Shown here: positions 2,471 to 62,625 of the stretch, piece after piece | Layout of the letters: the number at the start of each line of letters is the position of its first letter | Position numbering within the stretch: position 1 is the first letter of the stretch | Assembly (NCBI GenBank): GCA_963921825.1 | Contig: OY997594.1 | Span: 5,151,001-5,215,000 of the forward strand | Length of the DNA stretch: 64,000 nucleotides | Direction of reading: 5' to 3' | Source: Erodium maritimum | Taxonomy: Eukaryota; Streptophyta; Magnoliopsida; Geraniales; Geraniaceae | Program-made: the position numbers and the translations under genes | The notes under the pieces: model-generated | Databases searched by the model: none | The model's input: the letters and a program-made list of their open reading frames with translations, nothing else | What the model was told of the DNA's origin: nothing

Positions 2471-4495
2471 GTGTCGACGTCCTCCAAGTCGCTCTGGCCT
2501 AAAGACTAGAGCTCCTTATTACTATCTAGGCCGCCACCGCTCTCATTGTAGTAGCAAGCCCTACCCGTCATAAGAAAATTGAGAAAGAGACGCAAAGAGG
2601 CTAGGGCTGCAATTACCCACCATCAGAAGGAAAGACACATATACTTCATCAAATAGATAGTCCTCCATGTTTGTGATTGTCAGCGTTCCGGGGCATGAAC
2701 CGCTAGTCGGTTCAAATATAAAAGAGTCATCATCAGGGAACCCCGGCCCTACACCTCACTCTCTTCTTTGTCCTTCATGATCGTTGAACCAACCTTCGTG
2801 TTCCTGCAACTGATTGAGGGACATCGGTCCACACGTTAAATTATCCAATAAGATAGACAAAGATGAGAAAGGGGTTATAATGAGAACAAGGAACAGGAAT
2901 GTGGTTGAATGGAAGACATCCATGGCCGTTAAGATTGCGATTGAAATAACCCGTTTTTTTTATTAAAGTTACAGTCCAATTATTATAATTAGTTTACATT
3001 TTTTTTTGAAATAAACTTTCAGTTTCTTAAATAGTTTATAAATGAAACTTTAAATTCAAATATTGGAAAATTATATTTGAAAACTTTTCGGATCCTAAGG
3101 TTTCTATTAAATTTCTTTCATTTGTTTAGCTCCGGCGCTCTGTTGCTACCGGCCTCGTCCCTTTTTCCCGACCACTCTCGTCACTCCTCCGCCGCAACTC
3201 GCCATGAAACCCCACCCACAGTGCCATCTGACCCCTATTGCCTCCCGACTACCAACTCGTCGTCCATCTCCGATCCACCCAACAAGGTGGGCATCATGGA
3301 TTATGTCGATAGAAGACCCCAAAGCCATCCTCAAGTACCGCCACAAACTCCCGCATAAAATGGTGTAAAACCACGATAGGAATCGACCAACTATGGTGGA
3401 TTCCCGCCGCCTTCCTCCACACAAGCAGTATGTTGAAGGCAACAAGATCGAACATGCCCTTTAATGGCTCCCGTACGATCTGAAGATTGGGAGATGATAC
3501 CCGGGGACCCATTAAGGCACGACCGCTGGCTTTTATCCCCCTCCCCTACCCCTATCACCAAGGAGTCTACACCACATCTGATTCCAGGGGAGAGTAGGAA
3601 AACAAGCGACCAAATTAGCATAAGGAGGAAAACCCTAACCCACGATCGCATCCCACATCAGATCGCTGATCCTGATTCAATGAACCATACCCATGAACGA
3701 TGATCCACTACCATGAACGGATCCTCTCTGGCCCGTTTCATGCTACCCCACACTAGTAGAACCGCACTCGATTATCGCGAGGCCTTGAAACATTAATGAG
3801 AATCTGTGTGGCGGAAGACATCTGCACAATTAGGGACCTCCCGGGAGAAGTCTGTTTGAACTCGCATGTTAGTACACTGGATGCAGACCACTGTCCCAAT
3901 CCGACATCCCAAAACCCATGATCAGCACAACAAGGAGCCCGCTGGTACCCATCCCCTCCCGGGTCGGGCGCCTCTCCCACCCCTACCCAACAGGTCTCGA
4001 AGCCCAGTTGGTACTTCTCTTCCCCGGGGTTGGATGAAACCGATACCCCCACACAACATCATGAATTCCACGGACAATGCTAAGGATGTCGATCCCGATA
4101 GGGATGTAGCGAGGCACGTTGGCTTGCCTCACGGGTCGCCATGAATCATCCAAGGGCTCGCCGCTCACGGGTTCCAATAAGGAGCCATGTCCCAGCCTTT
4201 GCGAATCAGAACTCTCTTGATTTCCAGCATCCTCTTTTCCTTGACATACTCCTTAACCTACTATTACGATATAACATATCCGTTCAAGTTGAGCCGGGGA
4301 AAGGCTCATGGATATACAGCGCCAAACACAGCTGGAATAAGGAACCACCCCCTTATATCTCCCTGGTTTTTACCGGGTATTTAGTTATAAGATCGGTGTT
4401 TCAGCTGTCACCAAAATTATATCTCATCCTACTAGTTCATTTCCACTCGTATACGGTTTTTGTGACCTCCTTATTTTTATGGGTTAAATGTTGAA
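2471..4495. other. Gene-free spacer, unassigned
   Basis: No conserved coding frame was recognised on either strand. From about 3070 to 4490 the composition is more GC-rich and many short frames occur, as in decayed retroelement sequence, but no diagnostic motif (reverse transcriptase, integrase, zinc knuckle) could be read. The flanks are AT-rich. Confidence 0.4.
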
Positions 4496-4610
4496 ACTTA
4501 CCTTTATGTATTGGTCATGAACACTATGCTACCCTCCTTTTCAAAATGACATTTGCGGTACCTTATCTATTGGTCACGCGATTCTGTTAGGAAAAATGGA
4601 CGGTAAAATG

Positions 4611-4845
4611 CCGTTTTTTTCATTTCGTTAGTCATATGACCTCAAGTGTCATATAATGGATGATAAAATGACGTTTTTCCCCTTAAGTATTTGACCTCTA
4701 TATATTTTATAAGGAACAACAACGAGGGTGCAATGGTAATATTCCTTATAAAATGTATAAAAGTAAAATAATCAAGAAAAAAACGGCATTTTACCATCCA
4801 TTATATGACACTTGAGGTCATATGACTAACGGAATGGAAAAAACG
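4611..4845. repeat. Foldback (MITE-like) element
   Basis: Two arms of about 65 bp are inverted copies. The core CATATGACCTCAAGTGTCAT at 4633-4652 pairs with its reverse complement at 4805-4824, and flanking bases on both sides also pair. A second inner pair (ATTTTATAAGGAA near 4706 and TTCCTTATAAAAT near 4742) makes nearly the whole 235 bp one hairpin. No coding capacity. No clear target-site duplication was identified, so the superfamily is open. Confidence 0.75.
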
Positions 4846-8845: not shown

Positions 8846-10080
8846 TTTCATGTCAATGTTAAGACTTGTTGTATTGTTGAATAGTTAGTAGAAGAACCGA
8901 AAATAGTATCTACTTGAGATAGATGCGGTTTTTCTGATCAGCAGTCGTGGATTTATCAATGTGAGGCTCATACCTTCCTTTCAATTCATTTGGATCTCAA
9001 TTATCACAAATCGTTGAACGTTACAGAAATGCCTTGTTAGATGAAATCGTTACGTTACAGAAATGCCTTGTTAGATGAAATCTCAATTACAAAATTGAGT
9101 ACTTCAAGATATTTTCTTAGGATTATCTCTTTAATTTTTAGTTTTTTACCATCAAAGTTGTGTCCAAACTTTAAAACCAATCAAACTAATATAATCAAAT
9201 TGATTGAATAGTCTCACTCAAATTCCGATTATTCCTTCATGCCTCCCATACACGAAAGCAATGATTTTGACCTCACACTAAAATGAGTACTACTTAACGT
9301 GCCTCCCATACACGACAGCAACTACTAGTATTATTGGTAATCAACCAGTGCATTTTAATTAGTCTGATCTAATCAACCCATTTCAATGGCAAGGTTTCTG
9401 TTTTGAATTTCATACCGAAACGTTTTTAGTTCTATTTTGTTATCCAAATTACCAATCTTATTTGGTTCGGGTCGATTCTATACCCTAGACCCGGTTAATT
9501 CACCTTGCACATCTCGGGATAACTATAAAAACTGATTTCCTAATGATATTATGTCTAGAAAACTGTTTCGTCGTCATTTTTGTTCCTACGTACATATCTG
9601 GTAGAAAGTCAAACCACATGTATTTATCTCTTTTATTTATTTTTAAAGACAAAATACACCGCTGAATTGGTGTTTATCTTAGCTATATACCCGTTTATTG
9701 GTATCATATGTTGGAATAAAAGTGTTGACGGATCAGTTTTTGACTTATTAACTTTTTACTCAAAATAATTATGTACTTACCCCGTGCCTTTTATGCAGGA
9801 AAACGTGCCTAGGCTTACATTTGGATGAAGACGGGTCTCAGATGGTGACTGAAACGTGTGATTGCATGTGTTGTGTATTTAATTCATGTTAGTTGATATT
9901 GTTATTAGATCATATTTAGAGTGTGCAGAGACAAGCAATAAGATAGATTGTCAAAATTTGTTAGTTTATTAAATTAAAGAGTCAATCCAAAAAATACTGA
10001 GAATATATGTTTTTTAACCTATAATGGGAGCTTTATTAGATGAATAACTTGATTGTACAAAAGAAAAATAATTAGAAAGG
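8846..10080. other. AT-rich spacer with a short tandem duplication
   Basis: No gene seen. A 29-bp sequence beginning CGTTACAGAAATGCC occurs at 9019-9047 and again at 9053-9081. GCCTCCCATACACGA occurs at 9241 and, with one or two changes after it, at 9301. Otherwise featureless. Confidence 0.5.
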
Positions 10081-11590
10081 AAAAAAGCGAGTCCGTAGAC
10101 AACAAGAGCTAGCTTTATAATAGACTGTTCGGCTATATTACAGATAACGATAGTGAAGCCAGTGCCTCGCTCGGAAGGACAGACAATAGGACGTCGGTGG
10201 TTGTCACTTCTTGTCTCGGCCTAAAAATTCATGCAGTAAAGGATCAGGGGCGCTTGAGGAAATAGCATACGTTCAGAGAGGAACCTAGGAAGTGGGGAAA
10301 ACATGGGATCGGGTGTGCACCGATTATGGTAGGGCGAGGTGTGCTTCCTCACACAATCCCTTTTGTTGGTGGGACTACTCATGGACCCTGACGAGGCCGT
10401 TTGGCGGGCCTCGCCTTAATCATAGTCGGAGCAATTGTGTCCTCCTTCCTTGCACTAGGGTGACTGGTTATTAGGTTGTCGTGGGACTCCTCTTATGCCT
10501 TGCCCCATCCAAAGATGATCCTAGGTTAGGCAGGAGGTGTTGTATCACATCTGCCTCTCATAGTCCTAGGGTCTGTCCTCTAGCGGGGACATGTTGGAAA
10601 GAATGGACACAATGCACCTTCACCACGGTGGTGACAGTGCTCTAGGTAGAAGGTCCCGGATCGATTGTATAGATGAGAGCGTCCCGTGAGCAGGCCCTAA
10701 TTTGATGGAGGAGTTCGGACATGGGGCTATCAAGACGACATCCTTCGTCCCTGCTGGGGATGCTCTTACGACGAATGTTTCATATCTTAGGATGCATGTG
10801 TGTAGGGTGGTGTGGATGGCGGGTGGAGAGGGGCTCAATGACGGCATTCAAGCCCTTCCGTCGGAACCCACTTAGTCGTCTCCTGAACAGCATCATGATG
10901 GTGTCATCTTTCTCCTTCTAAAGAGGTCCCCGCTTGAGATAGATCAAAGATGCGACTTTTATTGTCAGGGTGGTCCGGATCCGCTGACGATCACCGAGAC
11001 GAGATAGCCAAGTACGTCTTGACAAAGAAAGAAAGCAGCCTCAGCCAGAGAATATGGTGGGTACATGAGGCTCCTTCGTCAGACTGGGATCACCAACGGA
11101 GGGTCGGTGTAGGCCACGACCCGATTTCCTAGTAGTCATTGGATTTGGCCTTTCTTTGGGTATCAGAGCTCCCCGTGGTCGTGCACTGGTGGGTTCACAT
11201 CCAGTTTGGGGGAGTAGAAGTCGTGGGGATCGGGCTGGGAGGCATCAGGAAATAGGAGAGATTTGGGGTCATTTTTTCTTCCAAAAACGCTCCATCTTTA
11301 TAACCTTTAAACTAGATGTCGGGGACATGATTTGAGGTAATAGGACATGGCATGGGACAGCCTCGAGCCTAGCGGCGTCAGTCACTTGAAAAATCGACGA
11401 GGGGTCAACTTTCTCAAGAGCGATTGTCATCACGTGGGTCGTCTGGTTACTGGGGGACATTGATGAGGACGGGAGGGTGATGTGGTATATATGGGTAGAG
11501 ACTAGAGATCGCTGGAGGCGGCGGACGGTACACCGACAGTCAAAAAGGAAAGGAGAGAGAACCCTATAAGAACGATTTATCAACAAACAG
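10081..11590. other. GC-richer block of unknown origin, probably decayed mobile DNA
   Basis: The block stands out from AT-rich flanks by base composition and contains only short frames on both strands. It resembles old retroelement coding sequence in texture, and the right part read on the minus strand could be the start of a decayed ORF, but I could not identify a family motif. It contains no recognisable host gene. Confidence 0.3.
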
Positions 11591-11979
11591 ATGATGATAT
11601 ATGTTAATTAGGTACGGACATTAAAATAAACATTTTTTTAATTGGAAATAGCTGAAGAACTGTTTTGTTCAGTGTTTTAGGAATGAGTCTTTGTTAAAGC
11701 GTAATGATGGAATCATGAGAAGTGTTTGAAGGAATTCGATAATTGATTAGAAATGTCTCGTTGCAATGATTTACAAATTACATATATCAATACTAACTAC
11801 ACTAAAAAGATGTGGTTTTCTCGAAATACATAAATTACTAAAATATTGTTGCTATCACGTCCTTATGTCGTTCAATATGTGTTTATAACGATATGGTTAT
11901 TATTCCGTAATTTCATATTCATCATATAGTTCTTAAGCTTTCCAATTACCCGTCTTCATCTCCCTCACAATTGCTAATT

Positions 11980-13400
11980 GTACCATTTTTTGTATCATAA
12001 AGACAATTATTTTGTCTCTACCACATGTTTTTTACTTTCTCTTTCAATGTCTTCTCCATTCGAAGAGGCTCTTGGTTCGATCAAGATAAAGTTGTTGAAA
12101 TGGTGATTGGAATCGAGAAGGTCGATAAACTTTTTATCGTTTGATCCAATTGTGAAGTTTAAAGGCGTCCAATCTTACTTTCGCCTTGAGACTCGTGTGA
12201 CCCCATCCATTTCGACCCATCCTTGACCTGCTTTCACTCATGCTTCCAAATAAAGTATGGGTTTCCCCTCTCTTCATACATCTTCTCGTGCTTTGTTAAG
12301 GTGTGATTGTCTGACATCTTCCCGCACATAAATCTGACAACCCTCTCATTCTCCCGACTTCAAATGTGGACGAGAATATTTGACCTTCCCCCGAGTGGCC
12401 TCACTAGTACTGGGGGATTCACGATAGGAGAGGCCATGGGCGGCTTTGTGGATGTGAAGATTGATAAGCGGGGTTAGGGTCGAGGAGGAACCATCCGAGT
12501 CCGAATTTGGAAGAACCTAGAAAGTCCCTCAGACGTACCATCTACTTAAGCATCCCGAGGATCCCTACCCCGCTCAGGCTCGCCTCCATTATGTGAAGCA
12601 CTCACCTTTCTTCTTTGAGTGTGGATGCATTAGGCACGTAAACGTGAATTGCTCTCGAGGGCCGATGACTCATAACTCCTCCGCACCTCACTTCGACCTA
12701 TCTTTGATGGTTGCGGAAGCTCCTAACTTAGGGAGGGGCGTCCACTAAGACTGGTCTGACCCGATACCGTCTCGATCCATTATGTCATGGATACATCAAT
12801 TGGATTTCCCACTAAGTTTCGAGTTGTTGCGATCAAGCACCCCAACTTTGGCACATGATCCTCTACCTAAGGACTTGGCGTACCCGTGGAGCAGGGTGCA
12901 CGTGTCCCCCTACTATGGAGCCCTAGTGAGTACTGTCAATTGACCATGGGGTGACACGGGATAACCTTCCTAATCTGGAGCAGAAACTGCGGTACCAAGG
13001 CCCTTGCACACCTCCCAATAGGGGTAGTGAAATGGGGAAAATTCAAGCCCCCTTGGCCCATCAGGCATGAAGCCCTCCGTGTAGCACAAGAATAGAGCGT
13101 TGGAAAACATCTTGAGGCCGATCGAGGTAGAAGGCCTAGAGGGGCAAGACACGATAACTGTGAAGCAGTCTCGCTAGTTCCAATGAGTCCTTTTGGGACT
13201 CACATGGCATTGAGGTGGAGACACACCTTGGTCTATTGGGATCTGACACCACTCGATCCCAAGTCTCCTCTTCTCATAGAGACTTTCTCCACTATCTGGC
13301 GATATTCATCCAATAAGGTCTCTATCGCAGAGTTGACGAGTAATTTAGGCATCACATGTCCACATAAATAGAATCAGGAGAAGTGATAGTAGAGTTTACT
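11980..13400 (+). mobile_element. Decayed LINE (L1-type) ORF1
   Basis: The plus strand around 12420-12500 reads IGEAMGGFVDVKIDKRG, then GRGGTIRVRIW after one stop, the hallmark of the plant L1-type ORF1 (DUF4283 region followed by the RVRV block). At 12600-12655 follows FFECGCIRHVNVNC, a zinc knuckle in which the first cysteine is replaced by phenylalanine. Stops and frame changes are frequent, so this is a relic. Outer limits are approximate; no poly(A) or target-site duplication was found. Confidence 0.6.
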
Positions 13401-13587
13401 CATACGAATAAGGATAAACCTCCTAGTTTACCACTTGGTTTAACCAATTTCGTTAATTATAAATTACGTGTTTTGGGTCTAATCGAAACCACGACTTGCT
13501 CTCTCCTTTTATTGTCATAATAATAGTTCCATGATCTTGTGTTGAATAAACTTCATTCAAATATGCTCCAAATGAGATTTACATATG

Positions 13588-13604
13588 ATTCAAAATTTAT
13601 TAAT
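13588..13604. repeat. Target-site duplication, LINE 3' side
   Basis: 17-bp sequence ATTCAAAATTTATTAAT, identical to 16027-16043. Duplications of 7-20 bp are typical of LINE integration. Confidence 0.88.
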
Positions 13605-16026
13605 TCTTTTTTTTTAGAATAACAAGTGCAGTAATATTATAAAATAAGAGCGTTTTGGAGGTACACAAGTGTACCCCACCTACAAAAGTAAATCCAACTA
13701 ACAAACAGAAAGGAAAAACAAAACAATAAATTCGGCTCTGGTAATCGGGGGCGGACGAAGGGGATATCTGCGGTAGCGTCCAAAGACACCGATACAACAT
13801 GCTTCTTCCAAAGGGGACTAGGCGAGCCAACCAAGTTGAATTGAATACTGGTGGACCTACATCTCCCCCGGTGTGTCAGCGTGCGTCGTCCTCCCTGGAC
13901 TGATAATGGTAGGGCTCCTGAACGCGGGTGTGCTGACTCCGGACTGGCAGGGGAGACAATTATCAACTGATGATGGTGCCAACGCCATCCATCCGCCGGG
14001 AAGGGATCAAAGTTGACCCACCCCTCCCCGGCCACCTCGGACTCATTCCTGCAGGCGAGGATGCTTAAAGCCCCCCGTCGCTGATGCCTGTGATTCCCCA
14101 TCTGACGCTGTCGAGTCCTCTGACTCGTGCTGATCCTCCTCCCTGTCTAGGCGTTTCTTCCCAGATAGTGTCAGACTCATCTCCTTCTGCACCCATTCAG
14201 ACGGAATGACATCTGACCCCGTCTCATAGGCCTCATCCTGCTTCCTCCGGGGGCCATATCGCGGGGACGGTGTACGGGGGCCACCCCGACCGTCCTTATT
14301 CCTTGTCTCCACATAGCTCCAATTCGTTCCAGGGACCGCCTTCCCATGCTTAGCCTTCTCTAGGGCCGGCCTCGGGTCCCCCGGAGCTCGCAGCGAGTGA
14401 CCCCTGGTCCCACCCACCACCGGGCACGACGGGAACAGGTGTCCCGCACAACTACATCCATAACAGTGATCCGGTAAATGTTCATAAGATACATGGAGTA
14501 GCGTTCGTACCTGCGACTCCGACAGTCGGAACCAAACTTGGCTCTACAGAGGTAGTCGGATGTCAGCTCGGATTCGGATCCGCATAAAATCACCCCAGGA
14601 TCGCCCCGACCCGTCCACATCCACTGCCTGACAGGTACCCAGGGCACTCCCGATCCAAAATCCCACGTCTCTGTTCCAGGCCCCCACCGGTAACTTGGAG
14701 ACCCTGGCCCATACCGAGAAATGGTGGAAGCTCAGCTCGCTCACCTGCATGTGAGCCCGCATGTCTGTAAAGAGTACCAGGGATTCCCAGAACGCCCATG
14801 GTTCCCCAGCCAAGACACGCGCTCGCTCCCGCGCCATGCGGAAGAAAAATCCAACCAGACCCCCTTCTAGGGGTCGAGCTTCCACATTCATCCCCCACAA
14901 GTCTTCCAACCTGTCCACCAGGGATTGCCATAAGAAACACTTCGATGTCAGAACCTTAGCTGCGAGTACAAACTGAAACTGCCCTCCTGCCTTAGCGATA
15001 TCCCCAGTTGGGATGACTACTTCCTTGATACAGAGCGAGGAAAGTCGCGTACCCAACTCCGGCATCCCCCCATAGTCCCATAAACCTCCCCGGGACAGAC
15101 CTCACGATCACCCGGACCCAATCGGTCGTCCGGTCTACGGGATTGGGCCACCGTTTCCAGCCCCGCCCCTCCAGCTCCAGCCCGTCCCGATCCATATCGG
15201 GCCGCCCACCTTTCCACATCACCCGGCCCAGATGGCCCGTTCCCACCGCCTCGACCCGCTCGAGGGATCCAGTTTTCCTGACCCGAGCCGGCACGACGCA
15301 CATCTCCCATGAACGTCCCCCCTCGGTCCAACCCAACTCGTTGCTCCAGGCCCAGCCCCATCTCGCTAGGGTTGTCCCCTACCTCGATCACCGTTTTTCC
15401 CTTCCGCCGTCGTCGCTCCTGCGCCTCCGGAGACTCCGTCTGCGTACCCTCCGAGCCCGAAGGAGACCGGAACGACACCCGGCTCTCTATCCCATCTGCA
15501 TGCAACATGCCCGCCGGCCGGAAGTGCGAGCCCCGACGAGCCCGAGTGCGCAGGCCCCTCGCCGGGACCCTACGCGACACCAGCTCCGCCCCGGCATGGC
15601 TCTCCCCTTCACAATTCACCTCACCCGAACGCCGGACCGAAGAGAAGATCAGATCCGGCTCCGGTGCCTCCCTCATCCGCAATAACACCGGCATGTTCCC
15701 GGCTTCTCCAGCCCCGGCCTCCTCTCCATCGCCAGACGACACCGGGATCACCGACACCGCTGCCAGACCCAACACCACCGTCCCCTCCGCGCGAACAGGG
15801 CGCCCGTCCTCTGCTCCCCGTCCCGCCTCCACGGCCGCGCCTCCTCCAGCCGCGCCAGTCACTGCCTCGCGTTCAACCGTCATGTTCTCCTCCGGCTCGT
15901 CCCACAGTGCAGTATCAACAGAGAGAGAGGAAAGCTTCGAGTTCTCCATCGCCTCCAACAAATCAAACCTAGGGTTTTCGCAGAGAGCAAAAACAGAAGG
16001 CGGCTACTTTAGGTAATATTTTAGTT
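13605..16026 (-). mobile_element. ORF1-only L1-type LINE insertion with intact ends
   Basis: A GC-rich 2.4-kb block is bounded by a perfect 17-bp direct repeat, ATTCAAAATTTATTAAT, at 13588-13604 and 16027-16043. Its minus-strand 3' end carries nine A residues (13607-13615) after a typical plant LINE 3' region. Minus-strand content in order: short leader, ORF1 from 15961, DUF4283-like region, zinc knuckle, 3' untranslated region. No endonuclease or reverse transcriptase (ORF2) sequence is present. A full plant L1 is usually 6 kb or more, so this copy is a non-autonomous, half-length element. The perfect duplication suggests a fairly recent insertion made in trans by a full-length LINE. Confidence 0.88.
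14043..15961 (-). pseudogene. LINE ORF1 protein (DUF4283 plus CCHC zinc knuckle), lightly damaged
   Basis: ORF1 encodes the RNA-binding protein of L1-type elements. Reading begins at 15961 (MLEAMENSKLSSLS) with about 295 residues of Pro/Arg/Glu-rich sequence. The frame then shifts by one near a run of six G at 15066-15071. The second frame (15065 downward) contains the DUF4283-like core: VLTSKCFLWQSLVDRLEDLW, LAGEPWAFWESLVLF and VWARVSKLPVGAWNRDVGFW. A TAG at 14544-14546 interrupts it, and beyond, in the same frame, a perfect CCHC zinc knuckle CYGCSCAGHLFPSC lies at 14424-14464. Damage is thus one homopolymer frameshift and one stop within about 640 codons. The long plus-strand frames opposite are shadows of the high GC content. 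Confidence 0.8.
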
Positions 16027-16043
16027 ATTCAAAATTTATTAAT
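16027..16043. repeat. Target-site duplication, LINE 5' side
   Basis: Second copy of the 17-bp sequence found at 13588-13604. It lies 211 bp upstream of the sphingosine kinase start codon. Confidence 0.88.
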
Positions 16044-16253
16044 GGATAAGTCATGAGTTAATATTTTAATTTCGAAATTGAAATCAACAATATCCAATAT
16101 GATTTCCATAAATATAAGGTTGTTTGGTAACAAAAGCAAAAACAAAACAAAAAGAAATAGCGTGAAAATCTAGGCAACAAACACGCCTTTATAACAAACC
16201 AACAATAAATGTTCAAATCAATCAGAACAAATACAAAACTACTGAGCTCGGAA

Positions 16254-19200
16254 ATGGACCGAAACGATGAACCATTGGTCATCTCTGACCAGCTCCGGGT
16301 CAACGGCACGCTCACTGTGTTGACTCTCTCCGCCGACGGCCTCCTCCGGTGGGGCCATCGCTCTCTCAGCATCGCGAGGGAGGTACTCGGGTTTACCGTC
16401 GATGGCCCCCGAATCAGGATCAGGGCCGCTGTCGAGAGCGGCGGCGGAATCTGCTGTTTCTCCGGGAAAGGAGTTCCGGTCAGAAAAGAGTTCGTATTCG
16501 AGCCGACGACGGAGGATTCGAAGACCCTTTGGTGCTCGAAGCTCCGCGACTTCATTGATTCTCTGGGTAATTTCTCGTAGCTTCTGGGTTGGTGAAATTT
16601 TATTTGGATTGGAGAGTTTTGGTGATTTTTTTTAATACTTTTTGCTGTTTGGCTGGAGTGACAATGCAGGAAAACTATTGATTCTTCTTTTTTTATCTGT
16701 CTTGTGGGATTATAGTAATATGCACTTTTAGTCTTAGATGAGAATAGAAAAAAATCTGAATTTAATGGTATATTGCTGTGATATCATTCTAGAGTGTGGA
16801 TTGATACCATATTAGACCTGATTGAGTTTTAGCCTCTCTTTTTCTTGAAATTGTCTTGTTTTGAAAAATTTAGAAAAATGCACTCAAATTCTGAATTAGG
16901 TGTTAGAATGTGATATTTCATCTGAGTAAGGTTGTGATCCATCATTGATCAATATTGGTTGGGAAGTAGTTGTATAAGGATCAAAAGTTGGAATTTTGTA
17001 ACAATTTCTCCAAGTTTAAAGTTTTGCTTAGAGAAGTGAGTTGATGCTGCTAGAACATAATATTCTTTCTTCGATCACAGGTCGACCCAAAAAGCTTCTT
17101 GTCTTTTTGAACCCATATGGTGGGAAGAAGTATGCTTCAAAAATATTTCTTAATGATGTGAAGCCCTACCTTGAGGATGCTAATGTGGAGATCACCTTGC
17201 AAGGTATGTTGTCTTGTCCATATTTTCTAGAGTTTTGGTTCACTGTTATTGGAATGTAATGTCACCCATTTGTAGTTTCATTTCAATATCAGAAACTAAA
17301 CATCAGCTTCATGCAAAGGAAGTAGCCCAGTCAATGGATATCTCAAAGTTTGATGGTATTGTTTGCGTTAGTGGAGATGGGATTTTGGTTGAGGTCGGTT
17401 TCTAATTCTTTATGTTGCACAATTTGTATTATATGTTATTAGCTCTATTACATGTATGAAATCTTCTTGACATACTGCATAGCAGACAAGTTTTCTAAGA
17501 ATTAAGATTTATTAGTCATTATAATGACATTGTATTTTATATGATCAACATTTGGTATTTCCTATCTAAAGTAGGGTCATGTTTAGTCGCTTTTGTCCCT
17601 TTTGATATTTCTTATGAGTGTTGCATGTTTTAGTAGGTTGTAAATGGGTTGCTTGAGAGAGAAGATTGGGCTTCCGCCATAAAGATGCCTCTAGGACTTG
17701 TACCTGCAGGTCTCTCAGACTCTCACTCTTATCCTTGGCATTGTAGTTTGATTTGTATATTAGGCACCACTTCTTGAGGTGGGAAGCCCCTAACCTAGAC
17801 AATAATATTTGAAAAGAACTTGAAGTGGAAGCGGCACAGTGTAGCTAATAATTGGATAGATATAAATCAAAGATATTGTGGTTGTGCTCTATATTCTAAC
17901 ACTAGATTTTATGGTGACAGGTACGGGAAATGGCATGGTCAAGTCTCTTCTGGATTCAGTTGGTGAACCATGTACACCTGCCAATGCCATCCTTGCAATC
18001 ATTCAAGGTTTTAAATGTTGTCTATAAGTATTTTCTGTTTATTAATTTGAATTACTTTTTTTAACTGAAGGATTTGCAACTACATCTTTCTTCATGCTTG
18101 CAGGGCATAAGCGTTCACTGGATGTAGCTACTATCGTGCAAGGGCAGACCAAATTTTTTAGTGTATTAATGCTAGCATGGGGTATGGAAAATATATCAAC
18201 ATTTGGTCCTTGATTCTATTATTTGAATGGTTTTTACTTTTTATCTGTTCTTTCTAATATACGCATCTGAAGTTTGTGGCTTGTTCTTTCTTTCTTTCAC
18301 TTTCACTATCATGGTTTACAGATTCTGTGTTATTACAGGTCTGGTGGCTGATATTGACATTGAATCTGAAAAGTACAGGTGGATGGGAAGTGCTCGTATG
18401 GATTTCTATGTATGTTACCACATATATATATAATATTGTGCTGCTTTTTCGTATTTGGGCAATCTTGAATTGGTGCGACCTGTTTAGACCCTTTATGTGA
18501 AGTTAATCACTATCCTATTAAGTTATCTATCTACCAATAACACTTATATCTATAAATAATCCTTGCTACACATGCTAACAAAACTTGAGCATGTTTTGCT
18601 TTCATGAAGAATTGCACTGGGCATGTTTTCATATTACAGTGTTTAACTAATTATAATGCTACTACTACATAATCTTTCGTTTGTTGTATTTCTTCGCTGC
18701 CATAGCATTAAATAAAGGCTGTAAGCCATCATAGTTCAGCATTGAGAAAGTGATTTATTTAAAAAAAATTATATTAAATGATATTACCATCTGTTTAGAT
18801 CCTTAATGGGTACTTACAAATTAATAAAATGAATCACTATTTTATTATAACATTTATATCTATAAATAATCCTTGCTTCACTTCTTATAATGCTGATACT
18901 ACATAATTTTGCTGCTGTTGTATTTCTTCACTGCTCTAATTTTAAATAGTCTGTTCGGTATTGAGAAAGTTTTTTTTTTTGGTTTAAAAAGAGGTTTTAT
19001 CAACTGTTATTACCTTGTAGGCACTCCAACGGATATTCCATTTGAGGGAATATACTGGGAGCATTTCGTTTGTGCCTGCACCGGGCTACGAAGCCTACGG
19101 AGAGCCAACCAGTTACAAAGGTGAAGAGCAGTCTGCTAACGTGGGCCAACGTGGCTATCGGGGGCCCAATATGAACTTGGAGAACTTGGAGTGGAGAACA

Positions 19201-20409
19201 ATTAAGGGGCCATTTGTTTCAGTTTGGCTTCATAATGTACCTTGGGCTAGTGAAGATACCATGGCAGCGCCCGATGCTAAGGTAGATTTATCGTCAGTTA
19301 TGTTGTGTTAGTTTCAAAGTCCATCAACACTCTTTTTTCTTGATCCCTCCCCAGGAAGCCATCAAAATTTGTTCTTGCTTGAGGTTGCTTCACTCAATCA
19401 CTGTTTTATTGCTATGTTCAGTGTCTTTTTTTTGGCTGTTGATTTGCATTTCTCAGATGGTTAGATGTAGTTTAATTCGTTATTGTTTTGATGGTCTGCT
19501 GCTTTGGTTGGCTGTTGATTTGCAGTTCTCAGATGGTTGTTTGGATCTTATTGTCATCAAGGATTGCCCGAAGCTATCGTTGCTAGCATTAATGACAAAG
19601 ATGAGTGATGGAGGCCATGTCAAATCACCATATGCCAGTTACCTTAAGGTAATTTGATTTCAATTTTAGCTCATAATCATCCATATGACCTAGATTTGAT
19701 TCTCAGAGCCTACAGAAAAAGACCGATCTAGTTATTGAATTATAAATAGGGATGATGGCAAAAAAGTACCCCGAGGTGTTGATTTTTTTGCAACCTGTAA
19801 CCCTCTTCTTTGGTAAATGGCTAATTGCTAAAAAAATGCTCCAAACTTGTCTTTTTATGCACTTTGTATAAACATGTTTCAAAATGCCGATTTTACCCTT
19901 GGGAATTTAAATTTTAAAATAATAGTTGAAGAACAAAAAATCCAAATTGTACAGTACAAAACTAAGGGATACGAAAATTCAGATTTTTTTTAAAAAATCT
20001 GAATTGTAAGGGTGAAAATCATCATTTTTATATAGATTGCAACAAAAAGACAAGTTCAAGGTACTTTTTTGCTATTATCAAAAAAGAGGGCTATAAATAT
20101 GCTGATCTGGTGGACTTTTTATTACCAAAAAGTCTATCGTGTTTAGCTAGCTGATTGGTTCAATTCGATCTGTATGTTACAGTCTTGACCATTAACATGA
20201 AATTATAACAGGTAAAAGCGTTTTGGTTGGAGCCGGGTCCACGTGTGGATGAGCCGAGCAAGGAAGGGATCATAGACTCGGATGGGGAGGTGTTGGCGAG
20301 GGGGAAGGGAGCGTATGGATGCGAGCAGAAGGCTCCATTCTCTTACGATAAGCTTCAAATTACAGTTGATCAAGGTGTACTTACCCTATTTTCTCCTGTA
20401 CAGGGTTAG
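16254..20409 (+). CDS. SPHK1: Sphingosine kinase
   Basis: Ten exons: 16254-16566, 17081-17203, 17293-17393, 17637-17709, 17921-18007, 18104-18181, 18339-18409, 19021-19281, 19526-19648, 20212-20409, giving 475 residues (Arabidopsis SPHK1 is of similar length). The enzyme phosphorylates sphingosine and phytosphingosine to their 1-phosphates, lipid signals in abscisic acid and guard-cell responses. Residues about 105-250 form the diacylglycerol-kinase-type catalytic domain: LLVFLNPYGGKKYASKIF, the nucleotide-binding SGDG within CVSGDGILVEV (about 170-180), and PLGLVPAGTGNGMVKSL. Later blocks include GLVADIDIESEKYRWMGSAR and DGCLDLIVI. An in-frame ATG at 16209 would add 15 residues, but family similarity begins at MDRNDEP, so 16254 is preferred. 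A LINE sits directly upstream, a MITE lies in intron 9, and intron 7 contains an internal duplication. Confidence 0.95.
18478..18990. repeat. Imperfect tandem duplication inside sphingosine kinase intron 7
   Basis: Two diverged units, about 18478-18788 and 18789-18990, share TATCTATAAATAATCCTTGC, a TATAATGCT-ACTACATAAT block, TTGTATTTCTTC-CTGC and ATTGAGAAAGT in the same order. They are non-coding; the second runs up to the exon 8 acceptor region. Confidence 0.6.
19432..19538. repeat. Partial duplication of the intron 8/exon 9 junction
   Basis: A 31-bp block starting TTGGCTGTTGATTTGCA occurs at 19432-19462 and at 19508-19538. The second copy contains the used acceptor (TTTGCAG, exon 9 at 19526). 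The first copy has TTTGCAT, so the matching AG is lost, although a nearby TTTCTCAG remains. Confidence 0.65.
19750..20079. repeat. Foldback MITE in sphingosine kinase intron 9
   Basis: The ends are inverted: GATGATGGCAAAAAAGTACC at 19750 against the reverse complement of GGTACTTTTTTGCTATTATC ending near 20079, with 17 of 20 matches. A second inner copy of the left arm occurs near 19828. About 330 bp, non-coding, with no clear target duplication. Confidence 0.6.
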
Positions 20410-40691: not shown

Positions 40692-41910
40692 ACTGGATGG
40701 CTTTACTGTAAATTGATCGGAAACAGGTTTTGCATATGCTCGGGCACTGTACATAAAAACAGGAAGAGGGTAGGAAATGGAACAGAGTTGAGAAATCATT
40801 AATTTTGGTATCCATAGCTAGTTCTCTGTATAAATACTGTATTATAGGATGGAGTGAGTGAGGTTGAAGATGCATAGCTTTGTATACGTCCTTGGCCCTG
40901 CACTATAGAAATATTATTGTGTTGGTTTGAATCACTCCTCTCTTGAGGGTGGTGGAATGACAGCTAGCCTCTCTGCTCTGTTGTTCTTTTTCATAACACT
41001 TCACTGAATCACTAATTACTTGGGATAACCTCATTCAACTATCTTGGACGATACATTTCTCGATGAACTACCCTTGAGTTTAAATAGTTTTTGATAACCC
41101 TTCTAAGTTTCTTCTGCTATCATTTTACCCCAAGTCTAATTTTAATTTTGGGATATGTAACGATGAAAAGTTGATTGAGATGTTTTTGGCCGGGAAGAAA
41201 ACATGGAAATTCTACTCTAATCTTACCCTCCATCGTACCTGTTCTCAAGCAGTCGTACTCACTGTGAGCTCTTTGAGCAACAGACTAACCTGGGTGGTCG
41301 AGTGTGTAAATCTTGGTTTCATCTTAGCCTTTTGGGATTATGGTTCTTTTAGTTAACTCGAAACGCCAGAGTTTTTCAAAAAACTCCGATCCCTGATCCG
41401 TCTATTATTCTTCGGAGAATTCAGTTTGGAGCACTTATATTACTTCAAGCGGAACGACGAGCCCCGTCTCCTAACTCCTGGATGTTGTCGCCGTTTCTTG
41501 CTCTCTCTCTCAGCCCGCTTGAACTCTTCCTTTCCCTTTCTTCTCTTTCGGCCTTTTTGGGTCATATAGACTTTGTCTGAATTCTTTTGTTGGATTGATA
41601 GTTTGTAGTTTCCTTCCCGAAACCCACATAATTTATTAATGCATTATTTTTGCACTTAAGTTGACTTAAGATGGGGCTATCACACCTCTTGAACCAAGAA
41701 TCTACCATGCATCGGCTCAAGAGAAAGATTAAGCTACTTGACTTACGAAAATTGAATCAGTCAAATCTTATTATTTTTTCCCTCTCCTCAAATGGCCCAC
41801 TAAACGTCCTGTGTCACTGTTTAATGTAATTTTCTCCAATTTGAACCGATAAATACTTGAACCAAGTACCTTAACCTTCTCTAGATCTAATGCATGGTAT
41901 ATGCTCTCAG
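40692..41910. other. Downstream region of the VAL-type gene and convergent spacer
   Basis: The first 200 bp are the probable 3' untranslated region (no perfect AATAAA; ATAAATACTG near 40832). The remainder holds no recognised gene. Confidence 0.45.
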
Positions 41911-44185: not shown

Positions 44186-44890
44186 TATGTTGGGTTTCTT
44201 GCTGGACGGAGTGGGGGTTGCAGGACATCTGTATCTGTCTCGAGTTTCTCCTCCGTCTCTACAAATGCTGGTGAAGCCGCCATCATTGTTTCTGCATCCT
44301 TGGCCTCCTCCTCAATCTTTGATCGATTGGTTCTGGTTTACTTTATTGTTTATGTCATGTTTTGCAGGGTTACTGTTCAAAGAGCGACGATTCGGTATTA
44401 CATCAGCAGAAGTGCGTCGCCTTTAGGGGACCTAACGGTATACAAGCCTTATTTTGAGCGGTGTTCGTCAGTCTTTCCCAATTAGCAATGTTATTCAGTT
44501 TCCTGTAATTTCATTATTTTTGCTTTAATTAGCCTTAAAAGTGCTCCGTTCAAAAACGTCCTAAACCTTTACATAGTTACAGGATTATTATGTTTGTCTC
44601 GTCAGAGACTTTAAACATATACTAACTCCTTTTTGAAGGTATAAATGTTGCACTTGCTCAAAAAAAAAAATACAAAAAAATAATCAAGCTTTTATATTTG
44701 CTTACGCCACCGACGTGTCAAAACAAAACGGCGAGCTTCTCCAATAAAACGACACAATAATACTTACAATCAAAACGGTGTCGTTACTCTCGATCGCCTG
44801 CATCGCCACGTGTCCCACTTCTCCTTCTTCACTGTTCGGACCAATTTCCTCAGTCGAAACCCTAATCTCTGCACTTTCGGAGCTCTTCCA
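44186..44890. other. Spacer and SYF1 promoter region
   Basis: No gene recognised at 44186-44500 despite a 131-codon frame. The AT-rich part from 44500 to 44760 precedes the SYF1 leader. CCACGTGTC (a G-box-like word) occurs near 44805. Confidence 0.4.
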
Positions 44891-47800
44891 ATGGCGATTC
44901 CGCAGGAACTCTATCCCTCCGGAGACGACCTTCTCTACGAAGAGGAGATTCTGCGCAACCCCTTCAGCCTCAAGCTATGGTGGCGCTACCTAATCGCCAG
45001 ATCAGACGCTCCCTTGAAGAAGCGCTCCATCATCTACGAGAGATCTCTGAAGGCCCTCCCCGGAAGCTACAAGCTCTGGTACGCTTATCTCCGCGAGCGC
45101 CTCGCAAATGTACGGAACCTCCCCATCACTAACCCTCAGTACGACGCCCTCAACAACACATTCGAGAGAGCCCTCGTGACGATGCACAAGATGCCCAGGA
45201 TCTGGATTATGTATCTCCAGACCTTGACGGAGCAGAAACTCGTCACCAGGACTCGCCGGACCTTCGACCGCGCCCTCTGTGCTCTTCCGGTGACGCAGCA
45301 CGATCGGATTTGGGAGCCGTACTTGGTGTTCGTGAGCCAGAGAGGGGTTCCGATTGAGACCTCGCTCAGGGTTTACAGAAGGTACTTGAAGTATGACCCA
45401 ACTCACATAGAAGATTTCATTGAGTTTTTGGTGAATTCTGGTCTTTGGCAGGAGGCAGCTGAGAGGTTAGCCTCTGTTTTGAATGATGATCAGTTTTATT
45501 CTATTAAGGGGAAAACAAAACATAGGTTATGGTTAGAGTTATGTGATTTGCTTACTACACATGCCACTGAAGTGTCAGGGTTAAATGTGGATGCCATTAT
45601 CAGAGGCGGGATTAGGAAGTTCACGGATGAGGTTGGGAGGTTGTGGACTTCGCTCGCAGATTATTACATCAGGAGGAACTTGCATGAGAAGGCGAGGGAT
45701 GTTTTTGAGGAGGGTATGACCACAGTGGTCACTGTGAGGGATTTCAGTGTGATTTTTGATGCATATTCACAGTACGAGGAGAGTATGCTTGCAATCAAAA
45801 TGGATACTATGGATTTGAGTGATGAGGAGGGCGAGGATGGTACGGAAGAAAATGGCGTTGAGGAGGAAGAGGAAGATTTCCGATTGAATGTGGGTACTTC
45901 ACTTCCTAAATTTGAGAAGAAACTACTACACGGGTTTTGGTTGGATGATGATAATGATGTTGATTTGAGGCTTGCTAGGCTAGAATATCTCATGGATAGA
46001 AGGCCAGAATTGGCTAATAGTGTCCTTCTACGGCAGAATCCACACAATGTGGAACAGTGGCACCGAAGGGTCAAGTTATTTGAGGGAAATCCAACAAGGC
46101 AGATTCTGACTTATACGGAAGCTGTGAGGACTATTGATCCCATGAAAGCTGTGGGGAAGCCTCATACATTGTGGGTTGCTTTTGCGAAGTTATATGAGAA
46201 CCACAAGGATGTGGGCAATGCTAGAGTGATATTTGACAAGGCTGTTCAAGTGAACTACAAAGCAGTTGATCATTTGGCTAGTGTTTGGTGTGAGTGGGCA
46301 GAGATGGAGCTGAGGCATAAAAACTTTAAGGGTGCTCTGGAGTTGATGAGGCGTGCCACAGCAGAGCCTTCCGCTGAAGTCAAACGAAGAGGTAATTTTT
46401 CTTCTTCCATCACTTATAAGTGTTTTTTTTTATTGCGTGTCATACATCTTATTTGACGGCTCAGCACTTCTGTGTGGGTTAATGTGATATTTAGAATGTA
46501 CATCACTGGTCAGTTTAGAATTTGGTCATAAACTTTAGAAGACTAATATTCAATTATTCTAATTTGATAATCCTTAATGTATAAAATACCATTTGTGATC
46601 ATTTAGTGATTGTGTATCTATTTGGATTGGTTTCTCGGGTCGCTTTAGGACTCAGTAAGCTGAAGCCATTTGAACTAAATTAATATCTATCAGCGTGATT
46701 GAATGGACGACCTTTTAATCTAATTCATGAAAGTAGCTTGATTCTTCTTAATAATTTATGTTCTGTTTATGCACTCGATCAACTCTTTTTATAAAGCAAA
46801 TTGTAGCAACTATTATGTCTACTCTATAATGTGAATATGTTTTGGGTAGAATTTAGAAAGTGAAAGCAGTGGTACAGTCTTCAGGTGAATTTGGTGAATG
46901 AGTTGAGGTGCTTCCTTCACGTGTAAAAAATACTTGCAATAGAGCACCACCTATTACCCCAGTTTCTCTTATATCAACTCAGTCAATATCAAACTGCTTG
47001 AGTTGGGTACTCCTTTCCTGTGTGCTAAACTGAAAACTGTTTGTGCACACGGGATGTTTTCTCCATTGATGAAAGCTTTTCAATGACAATTGTGGTAGTT
47101 GCAACTTCACAAAGAACAGTAAAGAACCATTAATGCATATAAAGTTCGGTCTATATGTGTTTACAACTGTTATATGCTGACACTGGAGAGGGTTGTTTTA
47201 TAGATAAACCTAAATTTATAGGTTATCTGCGTGTATTTCTATTAAGATTAGCTTACACTATGACGTGAATGACCCATACCTTAGCTTAAAGGCACCTATT
47301 TTTGGTGTTCCAGTGAGTAGTTCATGGGACAGGGTTGGTAGATATCAGTTGACATGTGGAACCTCTATGAGTGGTAGTCAAATTCTGCTATAGCAGATTA
47401 ATATGACTGGGGGAAACAAGCCTGCCAGAACCTACATTGGGCAAAACCTACATAAAGAGGATCTAATGTATATATAGTAGTTGCGTTTTGCTTTCTTTCT
47501 AGATTTTATTACCGTGTTAAGTGTATATTGCATTTTTGAGTTCTCTGCTGTGGGATGCATATAGTACCATGACTGATCTCTGACTATTTTTTCAATGCAG
47601 TGGCTGCTGATGGTAATCAACCAGTACAGATGAAGGTGCATAAGTCCTTGAGATTATGGACTTTTTATGTTGACTTGGAGGAGAGTTTGGGTACCTTGGA
47701 GTCTACTAGAGAAGTGTATGAACGTATCTTGAATTTAAGAATAGCCACTCCACAAATTATCATCAACTATGCATTGCTTCTTGAAGTACGGGACTTCCTC

Positions 47801-56965: not shown

Positions 56966-57226
56966 TAAAAAAAATATGATAGTTTTACTAAAAAGCCCTT
57001 ACCACTTACTAAGAGCAGCTCCAACGGTCGTGTCTACGCGTCGTTGTTGGCGTAGACACGACCGGGTAGACACGACTTGTCGTGTCTACGAGCCGTGTCA
57101 GGAGGGTCGTGGCTGCGCGTCGTTGCTGGTTCTGGCAACGACGCTGCTGGTCGTGTCTGGCGCCAACGGCTAGTCGGCTAGCCAGTCACGACCCGCCACG
57201 TGGCGACGTCGACTCCCAAATTTCTT

Positions 57227-57234
57227 TATAAATA
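57227..57234 (+). promoter_or_regulatory. TATA box of the first Myb-like ORF
   Basis: TATAAATA lies 104 bp before the start codon at 57338, in a context (TTTATAAATACAATTCACCC) similar to the leader of the Harbinger transposase relic near 27565. A CCACGTGGCGACGTC word lies just upstream at about 57196. Confidence 0.6.
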
Positions 57235-57337
57235 CAATTCACCCCCAACTCGAATTTTACCTTCTCTTCACCTTTTTTTAGCTTCCCTTCCTCTATTCTT
57301 CATCGAAATCTCTCCAAAAAAATTTCCTACACTCGTT

Positions 57338-58442
57338 ATGGATCCGAATGAAGCCCTCCAATCCCTTGTCGACTCCTTGGATGATGAAGACGTGAGTTCT
57401 CACCACACCGAAGAGGACTACTTAGGGCACTACTCCTCCTTTTCCCAACTCCTCCAATCGGGGCAGTCAACGCCGCTTCCTCCATACACCCCGCCGACCC
57501 AATGGCCAGAGTCCCAAGTGCAACCTTCCCAATTCGTTCCGGCCACCCAACCTTGCCAGTCAGCTCCGACGCAAGAGAGGAGGAGGAAGGGGAAGGCGGC
57601 GGCATCTTCAGCGAGGTCGAGACCACTTCCGCGACCGAAGTGGACCGCCGAGGAGGAGACCAGATTGGCCCGAGCGTGGCTGAACAACTCGCTCGACCCC
57701 ATCAACGGGAAGAACCAGAAGAACGACAAGTACTGGCAAAAGGTGCATGCCGAGTACGAGGCGGTTAGACCGGCAGAGGACCCACCTCGGGCGTGGATGG
57801 CGTGCAAGGACCATTGGCATAAGGTTAAAGGCTTCATCACCAAGTTCCAGGAGAAGTACACCCAATTCGAGAACACGGTGACAAGCGGGAGGAACGAGGT
57901 TGACGTCCTGGCAGGCGCTGAAGCGGCGTACTTGAGGGAGGAAAAGCATGTGTTCAAATTCAAGCATATGTGGCTCATCGTGAGGGGGCAACCGAAGTTT
58001 TTCACAAAAAAACGTTCCAGAATGTGACATCCCCGACCTTGACCTCAACCTCGACGCCGACAGTGATGGAAGCAAGCGGACGAGGATGGACGAGTCTCGC
58101 ACTTTTGGAGACGACTTCGACCACGAGTTGAACTCGTTTACCACCGAGGGTCGTCCGATCGGGCAGAAGAGAGCCAAGGCCAGGGCTCGAGGCAAAGCCC
58201 AAGCCTCTCAATCCTCACAGTCGGCGGCGACCGGGCTACCTCCCGAGCACATGCAGTTCCTCGACACTCTTTCCCAAAGGAAAGGGACACAGTTAGAGGG
58301 CAAAATTGCGATGCAGAACCAGATCGTGGAGACCCTGAACGCAGTTCTTCGCCAAGACATCACCAACTTGACCGCGACTGAAAGGGATTCTCGTGCCTCG
58401 CTCATTCAAAGCCTCGGGAAGCGGTTGGAGAACTTGGATTAG
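57338..58442 (+). pseudogene. Myb/SANT-like, NAM-associated C-terminal protein (Harbinger ORF1 type), one frameshift
   Basis: The frame begins MDPNEALQSLVDSLDDEDVS and contains the Myb/SANT-like block PKWTAEEETRLARAWLN, DKYWQKVHAEYEAV, CKDHWHKVKGFITKFQEKY. It changes frame at a run of seven A (58006-58012). With six A the reading would pass smoothly from QPKFFTKN to VPECDIPDLDLNLDADSDG and on to GQKRAKARARGKAQ, then the coiled-coil tail LSQRKGTQLEGKIAMQNQIV ending at 58442. That makes about 368 residues, the normal size of the family often annotated as NAM-associated or 'glutathione S-transferase T3-like'. In Harbinger elements such proteins bind the element's ends and bring in the transposase. 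The single homopolymer change could also be a sequencing error. Confidence 0.78.
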
Positions 58443-60385: not shown

Positions 60386-61240
60386 CAAACTAAATTGGAC
60401 CGATAGAAGAGGAGGTTGATCCGAAGAACTGATCCGGTGGAAATGGAAGAGAGAAAATGGGCAAGGCAGTCCTAAAACCTGGCCGACCACAATTAATACA
60501 ACTAGAAATGGTATCTTTTAAGGAAGTTTTAATTATTACGTCACCATATACATTAGAACTGTAGAGGTTGGGATCCTCTACACGCAGCCCCACGTTTCTT
60601 TTTATCTGGTGCACACGAATCAAGCACAAGAGGAAGTTTGAGGTTTCTATAGAAGGGCCCCTGTTCCGAATCTCACGTGACAGAGGCGGCAGGTCACGTG
60701 CGCGTCCTCTTACATTTGTTTTATTTTTTATTTTTTTAATTGCCGAGGTTGGTATTATAGTTTTATAGTCGAAGGAGGAGGACATGTCTTATATTATAAC
60801 AACCTCTAACAAACATTCTTTGTCTTTAGTAATATATACATATTCTTTAATTATCAAAATCAGGATACGATTCACCTTTGTCTTGCCGACAAAACGTGTT
60901 TAAGCTCGGAGAAGAAGGCCTTAAGCGATGCTTAACTAAATATTAGCATGAGTATATTAATTTTTGTTGAAATAATTGCCCCCCAAAAAATGTGTGTATT
61001 ATGTTTTGTTTGTACTTTGAATGAATAGTTTTAATTTCGGTATTTTTTTTACTATTTCTTTCATATTGTTATTCCTATTGATGCAAAGAAAAAAATTAAT
61101 TACTAAAACATAAATTATGAAGCCCAAACAGTAATATAAAAGTAAAGGAACATATTGACGTTAACAAGATCTGACAAATTGTTTTATGAAGCCGTGTACA
61201 TAAAAATAAGTGAATGATAACTTGCACCTGTTTCAATTAA
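60386..61240. other. Gene-free spacer with a G-box pair
   Basis: No gene recognised. TCACGTGAC (60673) and GTCACGTGCGCG (60694) form two close CACGTG boxes, but no gene start follows. Confidence 0.4.
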
Positions 61241-61252
61241 CAAATAACAGTT

Positions 61253-62613
61253 TTCTCCTGAGGTAGACACAAGTATTCTCCTAAAATAATGGGGTGTTTT
61301 GTGACTGAGGGGCTTGTTCTTTGGAAGCGTGTTATTTGCGCTTGTTTTAGGTGGAAGGAGACTGAGTGGTATCTAGGAGCGCTCTCGGTGCCTTCAAGTA
61401 CCTCCTCGTTGTTCTTTCGGCATGTGATGAGGTTAGCTCGGGATCTCGGTTTGAGAGAGTTTTTGGTCCAGACACTCTGAGATGGGTGGTCGGTGCTGGG
61501 ACCACGATTCGTTTTTGGGAGGACCCGTGGCTCTTTGATACCGCTCTAGCGATTCGTTATCCTCGTCTTTACAGGGTGGCAGAGGGTCATCATGGGTCGG
61601 TTGCGTAGTTCTTTATGGATGAGGAGTGGTCGTTCCAATTTTCGAGGGGTCTTCGGGTTTGGGATGAGGTGACTTTGGAGGAGACTAGGGTCCGCCTAGT
61701 GGGGTTTCGTCTGGTGCGCGATCGCCACGATACGCTGGTCTGGTCTTGGGATCCGTAAGGGTTCTCTACAACTAGAGTTTTTCAGGTTTTGGCTGGTTGG
61801 GTGTATTTTGGTGTCGTGCCTTGGGCTTCTGTTATCTGGTCTACCCCTGCTCCGCCCAAGATTCATTTGTTTTCTTGGTTGTTTGCTCATGGAGGGGTCC
61901 CTACTATTTCCTTCTTGGTGGATAGAGGTGTGCCGATTCAGTTAGCCCGGTGGAGATGTGTTCTGTGTGGTTCAGGTGGTGAGGATGTCGGACACCTGTT
62001 TGTTGCTTGCCCGAGGACTTGGAGATTCTGGTCCCTGATTTTAGGGTGGTGGAGTGTTGTGGGAGTGTTGCCGCTGTCTTCTACTATTTTCCTTGAGTCT
62101 TGGATGTCCTTGGTGGGATCTAGGAGGCTGAGGTCGGAGTGGGTTGGCATTAGGTTTCTTTGTCTTTGGCATATCTGGTTGGAGCGCAGTCGTCGTGTTT
62201 TCTCTGGATCTGCTTGCATTGACCCGAGCATTCTTCTAGTTAGGGTTTAACAGGGGTCCTTCACCAGCGTGAGAGCATCCGGTCGGCATTTAAGTTTTCT
62301 CGAATGGATCGAGTCTCCAGATGCTACTCTGACTAGGAGCACCTAAGGTTTGCCTTTCCATGTTTGAGGAGCTCTGCACCTTGTTCTCTGATCCTCGTTG
62401 ACTCTTCTCTCTCCTGTCATGGCTATCCTGACGAGTTGTTGGTTGTTGAGGTCGACCGAGGTGACCTTTCTATTTATTTTCTGTTTTCTGTTTTTTGTCG
62501 CTTTTCTTTTTTGGTTTTTTGTTGAACTTTGGTTTGGCGGTGTGTGACTCTTATCCCGGGATCCACACTCCCTTTTATTTTAATGCATTCCCTTCTCTCC
62601 GATAAAAAAAAAG
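61253..62613 (+). mobile_element. 5'-truncated LINE, C-terminal part of ORF2
   Basis: Plus-strand frames encode the end of an L1-type reverse transcriptase protein. WVVGAGTTIRFWEDPWLFD lies near 61482-61540. The zinc-binding zf-RVT domain follows (PPKIHLFSWLFAHGGVPT, CVLCGSGGEDVGHLFVACP, near 61850-62020). The frame is broken by stops near 61605 and 61757 and by a frame change. After the coding part comes a T-rich 3' region and nine A residues (62604-62612). A likely imperfect target duplication is CAAATAACAGTT (61241-61252) against CAAATAAGAGTT (62614-62625). 5' truncation is normal for LINEs. Confidence 0.8.
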
Positions 62614-62625
62614 CAAATAAGAGTT

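Follow-up and report, generated by a model that had tools for sequence, protein, structure and literature searches.

An ORF1-only LINE copy with an exact 17-bp target site duplication in plant DNA, possibly from an old HAL1-like lineage

A 2,422-bp LINE copy, here called A, lies on the minus strand of the 64-kb stretch of plant DNA that we analysed (the window). It is G+C-rich (58.8% versus 40.2% in the window), with sub-windows of 57–66% G+C over most of its length. The plant origin of the window is read from DUF4283 and from LINE and gene content of plant type. A is located upstream of a plus-strand gene (16209–20001) whose exons resemble those of a diacylglycerol kinase (DAGK_cat, E 5.7e-8; YegS_C, E 1.5e-5, below cut-off) and which, by resemblance, probably encodes a sphingoid or lipid kinase. 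The edge of A at position 16026 is 183 or 228 bp away from the first ATGs of this gene (16209 and 16254, respectively), and an effect of A on the putative promoter is possible. The features of A are as follows.

13605–16026, minus strand: element A, ORF1-only LINE copy, 2,422 bp, bounded by the duplication, with DUF4283 and zinc knuckle and 0 ORF2 domains in three sense frames
13588–13604, no strand: target site duplication, left copy, exact 17-bp match to 16027–16043
16027–16043, no strand: target site duplication, right copy, exact 17-bp match to 13588–13604
15066–16026, minus strand: G+C-rich leader of 961 nt, with an open frame from ATG 15949 to 15017 (312-codon stop-free run)
14043–15065, minus strand: ORF1, 340 codons, from ATG 15065 to TGA 14045, with one in-frame TAG at 14546–14544
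14571–14906, minus strand: DUF4283 domain (Pfam PF14111, E 9.4e-16; residues 54–165 of 14544–15065)
14424–14465, minus strand: CX2CX4HX4C zinc knuckle, recognised in the sequence; zf-CCHC_4 below the curated cut-off
13605–14042, minus strand: 438-nt tail after the ORF1 stop, with pyrimidine-rich tract, hairpin and A9GA (from length and fold)
13660–13675, minus strand: hairpin GGTACAC-TT-GTGTACC near the 3' end (from sequence and fold)
13607–13615, minus strand: A9 tail, T9 on the plus strand (from sequence)

The repeat flanking A reads ATTCAAAATTTATTAAT and is exact at both ends. None of 500 flank shuffles produced a repeat of this quality, which argues against a chance product of the A+T-rich flanks, and we found no further site with fewer than three mismatches to it on either strand of the whole window. 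At its 3' end, A carries a run of nine adenines followed by GA and then by the duplication. A preliminary description of this locus had reported a perfect 17-bp duplication and a canonical 3' end with A9, and we could confirm both. A poly(A) 3' end and a duplication of variable length are traits of plant L1-clade LINEs, and A has the two of them (A9GA and 17 bp). Both ends of A appear to be present, the 5' end being judged only from the duplication that abuts it. The insertion of A took place in one piece and left the 17-bp duplication and the A-tail, which are the mark of target-primed reverse transcription; we find no ORF2 in it.

ORF1 of A combines a DUF4283 domain with a zinc knuckle, as is characteristic of the plant L1 clade. 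The knuckle (CYGCSCAGHLFPSC, 14465–14424) is evident in the sequence, and its zf-CCHC_4 match (E 1.9e-4) falls below Pfam's cut-off. When the three sense frames were read through stop codons and scanned at E values up to 1, DUF4283 and zf-CCHC_4 were the only Pfam families to match A, and none of the ORF2 domains (endonuclease, reverse transcriptase, zf-RVT) was detected; the same scan detects zf-RVT in a comparison element, D. The 438-nt tail likewise contains no Pfam match in its three sense frames. Our results are in agreement with the earlier proposal that A contains ORF1 and lacks ORF2, and the duplication, the ORF1 domains and the absence of ORF2 matches together support its statement that this is not a case of 5' truncation. 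The proposal that ORF1 is nearly intact holds in part: there is a frame of 340 codons, but it is interrupted by the in-frame TAG, and an additional 312-codon frame is found in the leader. Recent mobility, which had been deduced from the state of ORF1, is a fair reading for A itself; the copies B, C and E, described below, are strongly decayed.

The stop-free run in the leader was reached in 0 of 1,000 dinucleotide shuffles. Its frame (15017–15949, minus strand) is rich in Gly, Ala, Arg and Glu, and its G+C content by codon position (0.73/0.59/0.67) follows the pattern seen in ORF1 of A; no Pfam domain was found in it at E values up to 1. It may extend ORF1 at the N-terminus by way of a frameshift, or be an independent ORF. 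In sequence collections outside the window, the DUF4283 piece of A yielded 6 pattern stretches among viral contigs and 26 stretches among genome contigs, none of which could be confirmed, and no match among plasmids. For a plant sequence, absence from these sets is expected.

Comparison of the 64-kb window with itself revealed two relatives of the LINE type and a probable third one.

12047–13588, plus strand: relative C, decayed ORF1 with ATG 12047 and TGA 13184 in one frame, tail of ~400 nt, ends approximate
10012–11591, minus strand: relative B, 1,580 bp, nhmmer match to C (E 0.0011), no Pfam domain above cut-off
~3120–4450, plus strand: probable relative E, heavily decayed and without a Pfam match, aligned stop TGA 4142, nhmmer match with C, ends approximate

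In C, stops and frameshifts interrupt the frame between the ATG and the TGA. Its DUF4283 domain (12310–12528) is below cut-off with Pfam alone (E 0.0014) and matches that of A in tblastx (6.7e-10) and tblastn (2e-7) comparisons. The knuckle of C (12611–12652) has its first Cys replaced by Phe, and the knuckle follows the DUF4283 alignment after 84 nt in A and after 82 nt in C. At the DNA level, nhmmer connects C with E (4088–4422, E 4.4e-5; 9e-5 in the reciprocal search) and B with C (0.0011 from B, 0.014 from C). The best values for B, C and E were each reached by 0 of 120 local shuffles, in which composition is kept every 24 bases; among dinucleotide shuffles, E values below 0.01 arose in 0/60 cases for A, B and E and once in 60 for C (0.0058), a value better than the 0.014 of the weaker search from C to B. 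The matches run through the aligned ORF1 stops (10381 in B, 13184 in C, 4142 in E), and an ORF1-to-tail junction thus appears to be common to these copies. This single junction is seen in B and C and is probable in E; the tail of A does not demonstrably match it. The tails of B and C align through to the end (0/500 local shuffles as good). The tails of these copies are about 300–440 nt in length.

Pfam scans of B, C and E in sense orientation gave no ORF2 domain, which for B and E is weak evidence, as no credible domain of any kind was detected there. The duplications differ between copies. A has 17 of 17 matching positions, and B is flanked, beside a short A-run, by a candidate 14-bp duplication with 12/14 matches and an exact 9-bp core (9998–10011 and 11592–11605). 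We could recognise no duplication around C or E. Eight of 500 shuffles equalled the 9-bp core of B, in windows picked after the repeat had been seen. B and C are arranged head to head ~450 bp apart, and A lies just past the 3' end of C, so that the LINE-like copies are clustered on the upstream side of a single gene. From the alignment, A appears to have inserted ~10–15 bp past the old 3' end of C. The head-to-head arrangement and the short distance would also be compatible with B and C having arisen from a single insertion by inverted duplication. About 150 bp past the approximate 3' end of E there is a foldback element (4595–4845), MITE-like by resemblance, whose arms (4612–4678 and 4779–4845) are 94% complementary and 100 nt apart.

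We assessed whether A belongs with B, C and E by several comparisons. When the sequence context of the A ORF1 stop was slid along C without an anchor, the best fit among 1,569 positions was the stop of C, at 4/4 widths; the same procedure found the stop of B at 1/4 widths and that of E at 0/4. Together with the colinear spacing of DUF4283 and knuckle, this fit indicates that A and C are homologous over ORF1 as far as its end. A stop-context rank test placed the A stop first among 2,591 TGAs at 3/4 widths and second at the remaining one, a result that is biased, since the B, C and E stops had been chosen in an alignment of which A was part. The tails and bodies give a different picture. Comparing the tail of A with those of C, B and E, we find 28, 20 and 75 of 150 shuffles to be as good, and for whole-body DNA alignments the corresponding values are 53, 95 and 140 of 150. 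A four-way alignment treating the tails of A, B, C and E as one family was rejected, as a profile of the B, C and E tails does not find A. A and the other three would therefore be distant subfamilies at best, or else A became ORF1-only independently.

Among the older copies, the body sequences before the stop are similarly uninformative for B and C (18/150 shuffles as good) and for B and E (32/150). The E–C body alignment was reached by only 2/150 shuffles, to which we give little weight because the unrelated control X1 reached 9/150 and X4 lay below all its shuffles. The B–E tails (46/150) do not stand out either, and for the E–C tail 3/150 plain shuffles, but 113/500 local shuffles, were as good. 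As these tail-only alignments fail, the placement of E relies on the nhmmer result (0/120 local shuffles).

For comparison, we looked at pieces of the window that bear ORF2; those considered are the ones noticed in the ORF list (D) or by tblastn with the 163-residue frame of D.

61253–62611, plus strand: D, an ordinary LINE, truncated at its 5' side and retaining the 3' end of ORF2 (Pfam zf-RVT, E 5.6e-15)

D has an A9 run and a candidate duplication with 12/14 matches (61239–61252 and 62612–62625), which was reached by 3/500 shuffles, again in windows picked after the repeat had been seen. Shuffle counts of 8/500 for B and 3/500 for D flatter these duplications, because short windows were chosen once the repeats were known. 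A second piece (41275–41421, plus strand) shows a weak tblastn match to the ORF2 3' end of D (61759–62247; 37% identity over 51 residues, E 9e-4) with no zf-RVT found there by Pfam, and is possibly an old ORF2 fragment. The tail of D is laid out like that of A, with a pyrimidine tract, a hairpin and an A-run. Homology of the two tails was considered and rejected: 0/150 plain shuffles, and 10/500 when the A-run was left out, were as good, but the count rises to 358/500 once local composition is kept. As the similarity disappears under this control, the likeness is one of layout only.

ORF1-only LINEs are known in mammals, as HAL1, and flies have a different form of them, HeT-A. HeT-A of Drosophila, a member of the jockey clade, is a non-LTR element that has a Gag-like ORF but lacks reverse transcriptase; it is telomere-specific, whereas A is found ~180–230 bp ahead of the predicted start of a gene. 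Mammalian HAL1 (half-L1) elements are described as L1-derived, non-autonomous, encoding ORF1p only and having several origins (PMC5753468). Like HAL1, A is of L1 type and has ORF1 only, but its ORF1 is of the plant type, with DUF4283 and zinc knuckle. The account of the poplar LINE Celine (PMC11288735) describes DUF4283 as conserved in plant LINE ORF1 and gives an A-tail and a 10–30-bp duplication as features. A shares all three with Celine and other plant L1 LINEs and differs from Celine, for which that account gives a 3.8-kb ORF2 that overlaps ORF1. With no endonuclease N-terminus in it, the tail of A is not a simple continuation of a LINE with the Celine layout; it points either to an ORF1-only lineage or to an ORF2 that was spliced out or deleted. 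L1 parts are also missing from human SpIREs, reported to lose 5'UTR or 5'UTR/ORF1 sequence through RNA processing (PMC5860796), and from 3'-truncated human L1 insertions, whose 3' parts are reported missing through RNA processing (PMC4859970); SpIREs differ from A in the part that is lost, since A is without ORF2.

The reading we favour, with confidence just short of even, is that A is an ORF1-only, non-autonomous copy of a plant L1-type element that was mobilised in trans and most likely stems from an old HAL1-like lineage. A polyadenylated RNA of A would have been copied at the target site by ORF2 protein supplied in trans from an autonomous L1, and the ORF1 protein of A itself may bind this RNA and aid its copying. 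We place A in an old lineage because B, C and probably E share its plan, a junction from ORF1 to a tail, with no ORF2 found. For B and C, and probably E, the common junction in the sequence favours a lineage; for A, the comparison is suggestive only.

A one-off loss of ORF2 in A seems unlikely to us. It would have affected a full-length L1 parent, either in RNA (by splicing or template switching) or in DNA, with the true 3' end kept. Spliced L1 RNAs are indeed reported to retropose in humans (PMC5860796), and by plain shuffles the tail layout of A resembles that of D, which carries ORF2. The similarity is gone with local composition kept, however, and A is not the only copy lacking ORF2, as none was found with the stop-to-tail junction that B and C, probably also E, have in common. 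Some probability stays with this origin because the tail of A is not demonstrably the same as theirs. Slightly less probable still, A, B, C and E could be separate retrocopies of autonomous L1 transcripts polyadenylated soon after ORF1, with no lineage connecting them. For this speak the proposal that many plant L1s recognise their templates in a relaxed manner, through poly(A) (PMC3747384), the reported retroposition of human ORF1 transcripts by ORF2p in trans (PMC2666806) and known cases of 3' truncation through premature polyadenylation (PMC4859970). A parent with a Celine-like layout would, however, place the ORF2 N-terminus in the tail, and the 438 nt of A show none (the spacing in the parent may differ); in addition, one monocot L1 lineage seems to require a specific 3' end, according to section 4.3 of PMC3747384.

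We consider it improbable that A, instead of being a LINE product itself, is a processed pseudogene whose source was a host gene that had evolved from a LINE ORF1 (with DUF4283 and knuckle). The long leader frame, the elevated G+C content of most of A against the 40% of the window and the lack of a demonstrated LINE 3' end would fit such an origin. Conservation of DUF4283 in plant LINE ORF1, as given in PMC11288735, argues for a LINE product instead, and the presence of B, C and E within the same window is more repeat-like than would be expected for a single gene.

Extending the favoured lineage reading beyond A, we tentatively suggest, with confidence below even, a long-lived plant lineage of ORF1-only LINEs, with subfamilies represented by A, by B and C, and by E, that would have been kept in trans by autonomous L1s as an independent counterpart of HAL1. 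On this tentative account, ORF1-only copies would be at least as common in the window as the ORF2-bearing pieces noticed (D and the weak 41275–41421 match). Four diverged copies within 64 kb do not amount to a family spread over the genome. The HAL1-like family envisaged in the preliminary description gains from the older relatives B, C and probably E, which share a junction without ORF2, but not from the tail of A, which is not measurably homologous to theirs. If the lineage is real, an independent plant case would suggest that LINEs repeatedly divide into one half that packages RNA and another that donates the enzyme, and it would provide a natural setting in which to ask if an RNA is more readily trans-mobilised in plants when ORF1 protein is made in cis. 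In the passages considered of a plant transposable element review (PMC9033089), non-autonomous classes are given and an ORF1-only LINE is not among them. A search of the open-licence literature returned no plant ORF1-only LINE among the matches listed, judged by title and the start of the abstract, which is weak evidence of novelty.

Further features of the window include Ty3/gypsy-like protease and gag remnants at 2–1321 on the minus strand (RVP_2, E 4.9e-8; Retrotrans_gag, E 2e-5). A 281-residue open frame in a G+C-rich island at 57182–58024 (plus strand) is weakly Myb/SANT-like (E 5.9e-4, below cut-off) and possibly transposon-related. Finally, a clear exon of a SYF1-type pre-mRNA splicing factor (E 4e-86) is located at 44684–46453 on the plus strand.
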